Assembly (NCBI GenBank): GCA_002786785.1
Contig: PCUD01000005.1
Location: 2,703 to 45,585 of the forward strand
Origin: Ignavibacteriales bacterium CG18_big_fil_WC_8_21_14_2_50_31_20
GTDB taxonomy: Bacteria; Bacteroidota; Ignavibacteria; Ignavibacteriales; Melioribacteraceae
Length of the DNA: 42,883 bases
Reading direction: 5' to 3'
Part shown: piece after piece, positions 10,839 to 40,827 of the stretch
Numbering within the stretch: the stretch's first letter is position 1
Layout: the number at the start of each line of letters is the position of its first letter
Notes under the pieces: model-generated
What the model was told of the DNA's origin: nothing
Seen by the model: only the letters and a program-made list of their open reading frames with translations
Database searches by the model: none
Position numbers and translations under genes: made by a program

Positions 10839-12259
10839 TGAAAAACATTTTTGTGTTTTGCTTAATTTTATTTCAAACTTTTTCTTTAGCACAAGAAAAA
10901 CAGTTTACAACAGCCGATGAGTTATCATATCTTTTGAAAGACCCATTTTTTAGCAGGTGTCAAATTTCAATTGATGCTTATAATATTTCCCAAAAGGAGA
11001 TTATATTTAGGCACAACGAAAAGCTATTATTTCATCCCGCATCTAATATGAAATTAATTACTACTTCTACTGCGCTTCTATTTCTTGGACCAGAATATAA
11101 TTTTACAACTCAAGTAAAATATGATGGTGAAATTAATGATGGTGTGTTGAATGGAAATCTATATTTTGTTGGCGGCTTTGACCCAGATTTTACTTCTGAA
11201 GATTTAGATACTTTAATTTCCAAAATAAAAGAAGAAGGCATAAATAAAATTAATGGTAATTTATACACCGATATCTCAAATATGGATTCATTGGAATGGG
11301 GATTGGGCTGGATGTGGGACGATGATCCTTCGTTAGATTTTCCACACTTGACTCCATTGCCTATTAATAAAACTGTAGTGAAAGTTGCCATTGAGCCATC
11401 ATTTATTGGACAAAAAGCTAAACTTAAATTAATTCCTGAATCAAATTATTTTAAGTTTGTAAACAACATTGTTACAGTGGATAATGATACCACCGATTTA
11501 TTGATTTCTCGCGATTGGATAAATGATAGTGACTCACTGATTTTTGAAGGTGGATTGTTTTTTGAGGCTGAACCTGATACTGTAAACATCAATATTAAAA
11601 ATACAAATCAATATTTTTTGCATTTAGCAAAAGAAACATTGTTAAAAAATGAAATTGCATTTAATGGAAAATGTGGCATAAAAATTATTCCAGAAAATTC
11701 ATTACCAATTGCTTCAAAGCACCGTTTATATAAAAATGTAATAATAAATTTAAACAAGGATAGCGATAATCTTGGTGCTGAAATGAGCTTAAGAGCATTA
11801 GCTTTTGATAAATATGGCAAATATGCTTCTGCGCAAAAAGGAATTGAATTAATTGATAGTCTTATTACTGAAGTTGGATTAAATCCTGAAGATTATAGAT
11901 TAGTAGATGGCTCTGGTGTGTCGCATTACAACTTGGTATCTTCTGAGTTGCTTAACGAAATTTTGATTTATATGCATCAATATCACCCTGAATTATTTCA
12001 AATTCTTTATCACTCATTTCCAATTGCAGGTGTTGACGGAACCCTTAAAAGTAGGATGAAAGCTGGCAAAGCTTTTAATAACGTGCACGCAAAAACTGGG
12101 ACATTAAGTGGCGTAAGTTCGCTTTCGGGATATTTAAAAGCTAAAAATGGTGACCTTATTTCATTTTCAATTAACACACAGAATTATATTGGAAGCGCAA
12201 GAAAGGCACAAAATTTTCAAGATAAAATTTGTGAAATTCTTTCAAATATGGAGGAATAA
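10838..12259 (+). CDS. dacB: D-alanyl-D-alanine carboxypeptidase/endopeptidase (PBP4 type)
   Basis: This 473-residue secreted or periplasmic penicillin-binding protein starts with a signal peptide ending FSLAQ. The three serine-peptidase motifs are present: SNMK (S69-K72), SDN (309-311) and KTG (419-421, in HAKTGTLSGVSS). A large insertion between the first two motifs is typical of PBP4 (peptidase family S13). It trims or cleaves D-Ala cross-links in peptidoglycan. The ATG overlaps the TGA of the TatD fusion by one base, and its TAA overlaps the prmA ATG, implying coupled translation across three functionally unrelated genes. Confidence 0.94.
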   Translation: MKNIFVFCLILFQTFSLAQEKQFTTADELSYLLKDPFFSRCQISIDAYNISQKEIIFRHNEKLLFHPASNMKLITTSTALLFLGPEYNFTTQVKYDGEINDGVLNGNLYFVGGFDPDFTSEDLDTLISKIKEEGINKINGNLYTDISNMDSLEWGLGWMWDDDPSLDFPHLTPLPINKTVVKVAIEPSFIGQKAKLKLIPESNYFKFVNNIVTVDNDTTDLLISRDWINDSDSLIFEGGLFFEAEPDTVNINIKNTNQYFLHLAKETLLKNEIAFNGKCGIKIIPENSLPIASKHRLYKNVIINLNKDSDNLGAEMSLRALAFDKYGKYASAQKGIELIDSLITEVGLNPEDYRLVDGSGVSHYNLVSSELLNEILIYMHQYHPELFQILYHSFPIAGVDGTLKSRMKAGKAFNNVHAKTGTLSGVSSLSGYLKAKNGDLISFSINTQNYIGSARKAQNFQDKICEILSNMEE

Positions 12260-37845: not shown

Positions 37846-39123
37846 ATGATGAACAAAAATATTTTGATAAAATCAGCATCTAATTTCATCAGTTTTGTAA
37901 TGATAATTGCTTTCTTTGTTTTCTCTGTTTTTGTTCCGTTTAACCAAGTATTTCCGCAAATAGTCTCTAATTATTATAATTCGCTTGGTTGGATTGTAAA
38001 CCTAATCTTTATTTTTGATTTAGCATTAAAACTAATTCTACTTGCAAATAAAAAAAATAATCTTGGGCTCTTTTCTGAAGAGAGTCTTGCAGATTATTTA
38101 AAAACTTATTTTATTTTTGATCTCTTGTCAATATTCCCAATTGCTCTTTTCCCAACTAACTCATTATGGCAATTTGTTCCTTTAATCAAAATATTTTCGG
38201 TTTTTAATCGTATTTCATTTATTCGTCAAATTATTTTAAAATTTGCCCCATTTGCTGTTGTTGTGCAATTCCTTTATTGGTTTATTCAAATAACACATTG
38301 GATTGCTTGCGGGTGGATTAAAATTGATGGTATCAATGAACAGCATTCTATTTCTTCTAATTACATCACAGCATTATATTGGACTACCACAACATTAACA
38401 ACTGTTGGGTATGGCGATATTGTTCCTCACTCTAATTTCGAAAAACTGTATTCGGTTGTTGTTATGATTATCGGTGTTGGTCTCTACGGATATTTAATTG
38501 GTAATGTAGTTTCTGTAATAACAAAACGCGACCCAACACACGAACACTTTATAAGCAATTTAGAAAATCTTTCTTCGTTGGTGAGATATAGAAATTTACC
38601 TAAGAGTTTAACAGCAAGAGTAAAACAATATTTCTTATATATTTGGAAAAATCGGTTAGAACATAACGAAAGTAGTTTTTTACAAAAGCTTCCAGATGGA
38701 TTAAAGTTGGAAGTCATTACTTTTTTAAAACAAGATTTTATTGAAAAAGTGAATTTATTTAAAGATGCTGGCAACGAATTTATTTCAGATTTAGCTGAAA
38801 ATTTAAGAGAAACTGTAATTACGCCAGATGAATTTGTGTTTCACGAGGGTGATTTTGGCGAAAAAGTATATTTTGTAATTGAAGGTCAATTATCCGTTTT
38901 GACAAAAAACAGTAACAAAGAAATTGCCAAAATTAAGAAAGGTGATTTTTTTGGTGAAATTGCTTTATTTAAGAATAGACCCAGAAACGCAAGTGTAAAA
39001 GCAATTACTTTTTGTCATTTGTATTATTTGGATAAAAATTCATTTGATTTGCTTATCCCAAAATATCCTTTAATTTCAAAAAAAATTGAAGAAAAGGTTT
39101 TAGAGCGCGAAAAACAAGATTAA
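37846..39123 (+). CDS. Cyclic-nucleotide-gated potassium channel
   Basis: The 425-residue channel has six transmembrane helices (about 10-220), with the selectivity filter TTVGYGDIVP in the pore loop, a C-linker (about 225-305, LTARVKQYFLYIWKNRL) and a cNMP-binding domain (about 305-420: EFVFHEGDFGEKVYFVIEGQL and cassette GEIALFKNRPRNASVKA). The arginine that binds the cyclic phosphate is present, so ligand gating is likely. The fourth helix has few regular arginines, suggesting weak voltage sensing. Two ATGs are in tandem at the start; either could be used. Confidence 0.93.
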   Translation: MMNKNILIKSASNFISFVMIIAFFVFSVFVPFNQVFPQIVSNYYNSLGWIVNLIFIFDLALKLILLANKKNNLGLFSEESLADYLKTYFIFDLLSIFPIALFPTNSLWQFVPLIKIFSVFNRISFIRQIILKFAPFAVVVQFLYWFIQITHWIACGWIKIDGINEQHSISSNYITALYWTTTTLTTVGYGDIVPHSNFEKLYSVVVMIIGVGLYGYLIGNVVSVITKRDPTHEHFISNLENLSSLVRYRNLPKSLTARVKQYFLYIWKNRLEHNESSFLQKLPDGLKLEVITFLKQDFIEKVNLFKDAGNEFISDLAENLRETVITPDEFVFHEGDFGEKVYFVIEGQLSVLTKNSNKEIAKIKKGDFFGEIALFKNRPRNASVKAITFCHLYYLDKNSFDLLIPKYPLISKKIEEKVLEREKQD

Positions 39124-39264
39124 AAACTATTTAATTACCTTTTAGAAAAAATTAGATAATTTAACAGTAGTACCAAATCATATTTTTTTGAATAGATATT
39201 CTAAAAATTTAAATTTTAATATTTTTATTTGCATTTTAAAAAATAAATAACAATTTTAGCACCT

Positions 39265-39315
39265 ATGAAAATACAATTATCAAATAATAACAATTGGTGG
39301 TGGTGGTACTTTTAG
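39265..39315 (+). CDS. trpL: trp leader peptide (four consecutive Trp codons)
   Basis: The 16-codon frame reads MKIQLSNNNNWWWWYF followed by TAG, with four successive TGG codons at 39295-39306. Tryptophan is normally rare, so four in a row just upstream of a tryptophan synthase gene, followed by terminators, is the signature of a leader peptide on which ribosomes stall when charged tRNA-Trp is scarce. The ribosome site is weak (AGCACC). A small hairpin (ACTTTTAG with CTAAAGT, about 39308-39332) spans its stop codon. Confidence 0.85.
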   Translation: MKIQLSNNNNWWWWYF

Positions 39316-39350
39316 TTCTGCTGTCCTAAAGTTATATAAATTTTAATAAT

Positions 39351-39386
39351 GCCGTGGATAGTAGAATACCATCCACGGCTTTTTTG
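39351..39386 (+). terminator. Attenuator terminator 1 upstream of trpB
   Basis: GCCGTGGAT (39351-39359) pairs with ATCCACGGC (39371-39379), followed by T6 at 39380-39385. The 3' arm plus adjoining bases (TACCATCCAC, 39367-39376) could alternatively pair with the Trp-codon run (GTGGTGGTA) with one bulge, offering a switch between terminator and another fold. Confidence 0.75.
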
Positions 39387-39390
39387 TTTT

Positions 39391-39420
39391 AAAGCCGTTT
39401 GTTTAAACGGCTTTTTTTTT
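39391..39420 (+). terminator. Attenuator terminator 2 upstream of trpB
   Basis: AAAGCCGTTT (39391-39400) and AAACGGCTTT (39405-39414) form a 10-bp stem with a 4-base loop and run into T9 (39412-39420), a textbook intrinsic terminator. It lies 33 bases before trpB, so transcription of trpB must pass it. Confidence 0.8.
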
Positions 39421-39453: not shown

Positions 39454-40827
39454 ATGGAGAACAAAATGCGAGACAATCAAATCTATCTTAACCCAAGTGA
39501 AATGCCAACAAAATACTACAACATTCTTCCCGATCTACCAACAGCATTGGCTATGCCATTAAATCCAGCAACTAAACAACCGGTTAGCCCAGATGATTTA
39601 GCTCCCCTTTTTCCCGAAGAATTAATTATGCAGGAAATGAGTCAAGAAAGGTTTATTGATATTCCAGAAGAAGTTCTAGAGTTATATTCATTAAGCCGTC
39701 CTACTACAATGCACAGAGCTTTCCGTTTAGAAAAAGCTTTAGGAACACCAGCTAAAATTTATTTTAAGTATGAAGGAAGCAATCCTGCAGGCAGCCATAA
39801 AACAAACACAGCAATTGCACAAGCATATTACAATAAACGAGCGGGAATTAAAAAAATTGTTACTGAAACTGGTGCAGGGCAATGGGGCAGTGCTCTTTCA
39901 ATTGCAACTCAACATTTTGGAATTGATTTGGAAGTATATATGGTAAAAGTTAGTTATGAACAAAAACCATATCGCAGAACATTAATGCAGTTGCACGATG
40001 CAAAAGTATATGCTTCGCCATCAAATAGAACAAATTCTGGGCGACAGATTTTAGCTCAAGATCCAAACTCACCAGGTTCTCTTGGCGTTGCAATAAGTGA
40101 AGCAGTTGAAATTGCAGCATCAAATAAAGACACTAATTATGCGCTTGGCTCAGTGTTAAATCATGTTATGCTTCACCAAACAATTATTGGAGAAGAGGCT
40201 CGTTTGCAATTAGAAAAAGTTGGAGAGTATCCCGATATTATTATTGCCTCAGCCGGTGGTGGAAGTAATTTTGCGGGACTTAGCTTTCCATATCTTCGTG
40301 ACAAACTTTCTGGATTGAAAAAAGATTTAAGAGTAATTGCTGTAGAACCTTCTTCATGCCCTACTTTAACAAAAGGAAAATTTGCTTATGATTTTGGTGA
40401 CACAGTTGGATTTACTCCACTATTAAAAATGTTTACACTCGGTCATACATTTATTCCCCCTGCAATTCATGCGGGTGGATTACGCTATCATGGTATGTCG
40501 CCAATAGTTTCAAATCTTTACGAAAATAAAATTATTGAAGCTGTTAATTATCATCAAATTGAAGTTTTTGATGCGGCTAAATTATTTTTAACAACCGAAG
40601 GAATTTTGCCTGCACCAGAAAGTGCACATGCAATTAAAGGTGCAATTGAACAAGCAAAAATTTGTACCGAAAAAAATGAGGCAAAAACAATTCTTTTTAA
40701 TCTTTCTGGTCATGGATTTTTGGATTTAGGTTCCTATGGTTCTTACATAGATAATAAATTGGAAGACTATAAACTACCAGATGAAGTAATTATGCGCTAC
40801 TTTGCCGATTTACCAATCGTCGATTAA
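39454..40827 (+). CDS. trpB: TrpB2-type tryptophan synthase beta subunit
   Basis: The protein is 457 residues, longer than classic TrpB (about 395), with the extended N-terminus MPTKYYNILPDLPTALAMP characteristic of the TrpB2 class. The PLP lysine is in YEGSNPAGSHKTNTAIAQ; ETGAGQWGSALS holds the catalytic Glu, and SAGGGSNFAGL is the phosphate loop. It makes Trp from indole and serine and usually acts without TrpA. The real start may be ATG 39466, since GGAG (39456-39459) lies 6 bases before it and nothing precedes 39454. Upstream regulation is by the leader peptide and terminators. No other trp genes are in the window. Confidence 0.95.
   Translation: MENKMRDNQIYLNPSEMPTKYYNILPDLPTALAMPLNPATKQPVSPDDLAPLFPEELIMQEMSQERFIDIPEEVLELYSLSRPTTMHRAFRLEKALGTPAKIYFKYEGSNPAGSHKTNTAIAQAYYNKRAGIKKIVTETGAGQWGSALSIATQHFGIDLEVYMVKVSYEQKPYRRTLMQLHDAKVYASPSNRTNSGRQILAQDPNSPGSLGVAISEAVEIAASNKDTNYALGSVLNHVMLHQTIIGEEARLQLEKVGEYPDIIIASAGGGSNFAGLSFPYLRDKLSGLKKDLRVIAVEPSSCPTLTKGKFAYDFGDTVGFTPLLKMFTLGHTFIPPAIHAGGLRYHGMSPIVSNLYENKIIEAVNYHQIEVFDAAKLFLTTEGILPAPESAHAIKGAIEQAKICTEKNEAKTILFNLSGHGFLDLGSYGSYIDNKLEDYKLPDEVIMRYFADLPIVD

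Follow-up and report, generated by a model that had tools for sequence, protein, structure and literature searches.

The question raised by this locus is what controls trpB2, a stand-alone gene for a TrpB-like enzyme that is located outside the trp operon and preceded by a short, Trp-rich reading frame. The locus lies within a window of 42,883 nucleotides, i.e. the whole stretch of DNA that was analyzed, from the genome of an Ignavibacteriales bacterium (contig PCUD01000005.1). A preliminary description had proposed ribosome-mediated Trp attenuation of this orphan gene, and the elements on which it relied, namely a 16-codon ORF with four TGG codons upstream of two intrinsic terminators and trpB2, were recovered concordantly by translation, a terminator scan and profile scores. 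The following features were distinguished:

39228-39259, plus strand: putative promoter with a −33 TTTG (39228-39231) and a −7-like box AATTTTAG (39252-39259), from a motif scan
39265-39315, plus strand: leader peptide ORF, 16 codons, MKIQLSNNNNWWWWYF and stop, from translation (2-5 Trp at the same place in relatives)
39295-39306, plus strand: segment 1, the run of four TGG codons, which forms the 5′ side of the 1:2 hairpin, from 1:2 covariation
39314-39327, plus strand: segment 2 (AGTTCTGCTGTCCT), partner of either segment 1 or segment 3, from folding energies and covariation
39351-39368, plus strand: segment 3, shared by terminator 1 (5′ arm) and the antiterminator (3′ arm), from 2:3 covariation
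39368-39385, plus strand: segment 4, made up of the terminator 1 3′ arm (39368-39379) and the U-tract (39380-39385), from 3:4 pairing
39351-39379, plus strand: terminator 1, GCCGTGGATAGT/ACCATCCACGGC, followed by the U-tract TTTTTT at 39380-39385, from sequence and terminator scan
39375-39398, plus strand: proposed 4:5 helix, ACGGCTTT (39375-39382) with AAAGCCGT (39391-39398), a hairpin in the scan
39391-39420, plus strand: terminator 2, AAAGCCGTTT...AAACGGCTTT-TTTTTT, composed of segment 5 (39391-39400), segment 6 (39405-39414) and a U-tract (39415-39420), from terminator scan and 5:6 pairing
39466-40827, plus strand: trpB2, TrpB-like PLP-dependent enzyme, from profile matches (start at 39454 according to the ORF finder)

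The trpB2 product was assigned on the basis of its scores against NF009057 (709.6 bits; cut-off 366) and TIGR01415 (631.5 bits; cut-off 518.9). The ATG at 39466 is more likely to be the start of the gene than position 39454, because GGAG at 39456-39459 would then constitute the ribosome site, as judged by inspection of the sequence alongside the aligned relatives. The amino acid encoded by the codon run is Trp, and the product of the controlled gene is a TrpB-like enzyme, so both belong to Trp metabolism.

Leaders of the same type were found in numerous relatives. In all 16 genomes of the first search, the window included, the same leader accompanied a trpB2 like that of the window (66-100% identity). 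A covariance model built on 16 leaders and searched over 164 genomes of the order gave matches in 39 genomes, one per genome, and in 37 of these tblastn placed trpB2 directly downstream. The distance from the end of the match to trpB2 is mostly 34-105 nt (−9 in L189, counted from an extrapolated start). The remaining two matches comprise L181, cut by a contig end, and L195, which is weak and located just before trpE. At the level of the phylum (395 genomes) and of the class (294 genomes), the strong matches of the model again preceded trpB2; outside the order, two matches, L134 and L238 (the latter from another family of the class), are also located before this gene. Weak phylum-wide matches away from trpB2 (L129-L133 and L135) adjoin unrelated genes and were taken as chance terminators. 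All leaders carry 2-5 Trp, and the remaining peptide sequence diverges. The trpB2 leader L233 (genome G506), which has a promoter and a terminator without a Trp run, represents a natural degenerate case.

As the preliminary proposal implied, alignment of the regions upstream of trpB2 in relatives revealed a conserved Trp ORF and covarying hairpins. Pairing of the Trp codons with segment 2 (1:2) is found in 93.2% of cells across 37 leaders, and that of 2:3 in 88.3% of cells across 37 leaders (30-54% in slid controls). Two-sided cells number 30 for 1:2, versus 11.6 in shuffles (0/500), and 33 for 2:3, versus 10.8 (0/500); given the relatedness of the sequences, these shuffle counts should not be read as probabilities. 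The 3:4 stem is paired in 96.3% of cells (16 leaders), and terminator 1 is kept in every aligned leader. Judging from the alignment, 1:2, 2:3 and 3:4 are conserved with two-sided base changes, and the predicted 2:3 antiterminator is mutually exclusive with the terminator. RNAalifold recovers 1:2 together with 3:4 unprompted. Median energies are −9.2 kcal/mol for 1:2, −16.3 for 2:3, −18.6 for 3:4 and −15.4 for 4:5. In the window, the antiterminator read from the sequence comprises 12 pairs (39315-39326 with 39356-39367), and the energies of 2:3 and 3:4 are −18.1 and −16.6 kcal/mol, respectively. Compared with dinucleotide shuffles, the leader region folds with a z of −3.6.

Ribosome positions were modelled by constrained folding, with an assumed footprint extending from the P-site minus 15 to the A-site plus 12 and with folding considered before segment 4 is made. 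With the A site at the first or the last Trp codon, 2:3 forms in 37/37 leaders, and a ribosome on the stop codon blocks it in 35 of the 37, the exceptions being L168 and L169, genus mates in which segment 2 is incompletely masked. Segment 2 encodes the end of the peptide (..LS or ..PS, stop) in most leaders, with the stop codon ending 2 nt beyond this segment; leaders of the window's genus have an earlier stop codon, yet segment 2 is still within reach of the footprint. Under a shortage of charged tRNA-Trp, the ribosome would thus stall on the TGG run and leave segment 2 free to capture the emerging segment 3, which would prevent formation of terminator 1 (3:4) and allow trpB2 to be transcribed. 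With ample Trp, translation would proceed to the stop codon, where the ribosome covers segment 2, so that 3:4 forms and transcription ends. In equilibrium folds of the full leader the terminator outcompetes 2:3 in most leaders, even when the ribosome is stalled, and the mechanism therefore requires co-transcriptional folding. Attenuation in general depends on such folding.

The fate of the untranslated leader bears on another part of the preliminary description, according to which the Trp-codon run can pair with the 3′ arm of terminator 1 and the switching logic might therefore differ from the enteric one. This pairing is real in the window. It dominates, however, in only 2/37 untranslated full leaders (the window and its close relative L167, which form 1:4 and 2:3), whereas the other 35 form the ordinary 1:2 hairpin and terminator 1, which speaks against a different logic. 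As the main switch, the pairing was rejected for want of conservation. In the modelled folds 1:4 matters only for untranslated RNA, and absence of translation would lead to termination in most leaders through 1:2 and 3:4.

The occurrence of the leader in 39/164 genomes of the order, the covarying pairings and the stall modelling uphold the proposed attenuation of orphan trpB2, and we are highly confident that the leader is a canonical ribosome-mediated transcription attenuator which senses charged tRNA-Trp and controls this gene. Alternatively, the two hairpins might simply terminate transcription of the upstream gene, with the Trp-rich ORF being a chance frame. A gene on the same strand does stop at 39123, and intergenic terminators are common; however, relatives differ in their upstream neighbours and yet retain the Trp ORF, segment 2 and the terminator. 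Across genera, the Trp run and the pairing segments are moreover conserved jointly, and the covariation of 1:2 and 2:3 likewise contradicts a chance ORF. In shuffled regions upstream of diverse trpB2 genes Trp-rich ORFs arise in approximately 3% of cases, compared with 10 of 76 diverse trpB2 loci of other phyla, among which a clear leader with a hairpin was seen in one genome each of Caldithrix, Neomarinimicrobiota and Bacteroidota (L064, L077 and L080). We consider this explanation extremely unlikely.

It is also very improbable that the region acts as a riboswitch or a protein-binding attenuator (TRAP-like, or the Rfam trpB motif) within which the ORF is incidental. The Rfam search of the region gave no family at gathering score, and the one match pointing in this direction, to RF04312 ‘trpB’, is weak and far under the cut-off (26.9 vs 59 bits); as far as the available part of its description goes, that motif comes from Firmicutes and Fusobacteria (PMC11109978). 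Apart from the segments, the aligned leaders contain no aptamer-like conserved core, and what they conserve are the Trp codons and the position of the stop codon. No T-box match was obtained with Rfam in the region, even at a permissive threshold, and a PF01371 search revealed no Trp repressor in the genome, its one weak match (TrpR) being an HTH protein of the antitoxin/RstR type. Finally, free Trp could stall the ribosome at the end of a TnaC-like arrest peptide, in which case trpB2 would be regulated in the opposite direction. Trp-Pro leaders without terminators do occur upstream of some trpB2 genes in another family of the order, but leaders of the window type have no conserved residues except the Trp run and region 2, and they possess a real terminator and antiterminator, with occupancy of the stop codon predicting termination. 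We find such an arrest peptide hardly credible here.

A scan for E. coli-type sigma-70 promoters gave nothing above chance, and a Bacteroidota motif fits instead. TTG and a TAnnTTTG-like box (≤2 mismatches) are located shortly upstream of the start codon in 30/37 leaders, compared with a mean of 3.5 and a maximum of 10 in shuffles. The spacing between them is nearly always 20, and 4-8 nt separate the end of the box from the leader start codon in close matches. In the window, TTG and the box are 20 bp apart, and the latter, with 2 mismatches, is a poor −7 box. In Flavobacterium this box covers positions −12 to −5 (PMC9723704), and transcription would therefore begin at, or 0-4 nt upstream of, the start codon, so the leader mRNA is probably near-leaderless. 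Such short 5′ ends are rare, constituting approximately 3.7% in Bacteroides (under 10 nt), while 5.5% are leaderless in Flavobacterium (PMC9723704).

Terminator 2 raises a further question, since the switch would not work if this terminator acted constitutively. Pairing of its stem (5:6) is seen in 76.1% of cells. Between arm 4 (..CACGGCTTT) and arm 5 (AAAGCCGTG..) there is also complementarity, and the resulting 4:5 helix is paired in 83.8% of cells across 33 leaders (at most 40.1% when slid); two-sided changes are few, at 4 pairs (4/500 shuffles, again a count and not a probability). Some leaders have both 4:5 and 5:6, others 4:5 without terminator 2 (L120, L170, L188, L191 and L192) and others neither (L125, L128, L172 and L180); terminator 2 without 4:5 was not found among the leaders compared. 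Every leader with terminator 2 has a 4:5 helix of −9.7 kcal/mol or stronger, and in many leaders 4:5 is stronger than 5:6. An arm 5 complementary to arm 4 is also kept in five leaders of one genus that lack terminator 2.

By analogy with the his leader, 4:5 may thus be a second antiterminator which cancels terminator 2. As arm 5 is not synthesized until terminator 1 has been passed, 4:5 would act on terminator 2 and not on terminator 1. The tandem terminators could then form one coupled switch (1:2, 2:3, 3:4, 4:5, 5:6) in which a single decision of the ribosome sets both, a proposal to which we give about even chances. Formation of 2:3 would free arm 4 to capture arm 5, so that in leaders with a second terminator this is probably switched off too; formation of 3:4 would leave arm 5 available for terminator 2, which would catch leakage. 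Given the resemblance between arms 3 and 5, duplication of a terminator could also have produced 4:5 incidentally.

The same genome carries the trpEGDCFBA operon on another contig (gene order from translations), preceded by a leader, MHPIMKNLLNISTLNKNNNWAWWQFIL, with its own terminator:

G000:C127 (L032), approximately 11434-11733, minus strand: WAWW leader and terminator of trpEGDCFBA, unlike the trpB2 leader in sequence

In relatives, the leaders of trpE operons contain WAWWWW, WWWW or WW. Since trpEGDCFBA has an attenuator of its own, the genome appears to contain at least two Trp units under separate attenuation, TrpB2 being one of them. The leader of trpB2 suggests that this enzyme belongs to a Trp-starvation regulon. 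The attenuator points to Trp-starvation control in the biosynthetic direction, with which the salvage of free indole, suggested in the preliminary description, and a second Trp synthase fit equally; salvage by TrpB2 is a possible role. A tryptophanase-subfamily gene and a tyrosine phenol-lyase gene are also encoded, and an internal source of indole is therefore possible. The role of stand-alone TrpB2 is unsettled where trpA and trpB1 exist, the activities put forward being that of a serine deaminase (found poor) and indole scavenging (suggested) (PMC1854888, PMC11917138). Although the mechanism is a textbook one, its conservation on a stand-alone trpB2, parallel to the trpEGDCFBA switch, provides genomic evidence linking this poorly understood enzyme to Trp supply rather than breakdown.

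Other leaders were observed during the comparison. In another family of the order, trpB2 is preceded by a second kind of Trp leader (L228, L229, L232, L234, L235 and L026), with peptides ending in WWPKGL, WWPR, WWPQGL, WWPPRGL or WNWPR. Its Trp-Pro codons lie inside a small GC hairpin (e.g. GGCCTCGCTGAGGCC), often accompanied by a second hairpin without a U-tract, and Rho-dependent or arrest-peptide control is possible in this case. The order contains two TrpB2 groups, delimited by sequence identity alone; in the other group, leaders of some members (L021, L199-L202, L019/L222) end in WPWRR or WWWLSC with no evident terminator, and most remaining members are without a Trp leader. A Dehalococcoidia trpB2 (L108) is preceded by a sequence that appears T-box-like by eye (GGGTGGCACCGCG), and may be under another RNA control. 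A conserved terminator was also noted upstream of an ABC exporter gene in families f15 and f16 of the class (L240, L241, L242 and L244); at least two of these terminators follow short frames, e.g. ..NPWNYRRYIE-stop, in a likeness to antibiotic-sensing exporter attenuators.

The E. coli trpL region comprises a leader peptide with Trp codons, alternative 1:2, 2:3 and 3:4 pairings, a stop codon whose occupancy masks segment 2, and a terminator with a U-tract; without a ribosome it forms 1:2 and 3:4. The trpB2 leader has the same leader peptide, hairpin set, stop placement and terminator as trpL of E. coli and other Proteobacteria, but it controls a stand-alone gene outside the trp operon in another lineage, often has two terminators and is predicted to be part of a near-leaderless mRNA. 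Classical attenuation is thereby extended to this lineage, for which no report was found in the literature searched (most subscription papers lay outside the search). As far as the available part of the source goes, leader-peptide attenuation precedes amino-acid operons in Flavobacterium psychrophilum, and the mechanism is thus expected in Bacteroidota; the genes described there are others, with no mention of trpB2 (PMC9723704). The trpL/rnTrpL of Sinorhizobium meliloti, with a WWW leader and an mRNA starting at the ATG, controls trpE(G) (PMC7298713); its peptide is similar in style (cf. A. tumefaciens MNIVSKNIANWWWSSFLRP), whereas the controlled gene differs, and the likeness is probably convergent. 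The Trp attenuators of Actinobacteria, including a candidate before trpB2A of Corynebacterium diphtheriae, share the Trp leader and triples of complementary segments, but trpB2A forms an operon with trpA in a different phylum (PMC1262725), unlike the stand-alone trpB2. The RF04312 motif likewise places a terminator before trpB-type genes, with no Trp ORF in the available part of its description (PMC11109978). The enterobacterial his attenuator, with stem-loops AB, CD and EF and the alternative DE (PMC10989985), is a six-segment chain of alternative pairings, like the chain proposed here with 4:5. In the trpB2 leader, however, 3:4 and 5:6 both carry U-tracts and provide two terminators in the chain, which, if indeed coupled, would constitute a two-terminator variant of classical attenuation.
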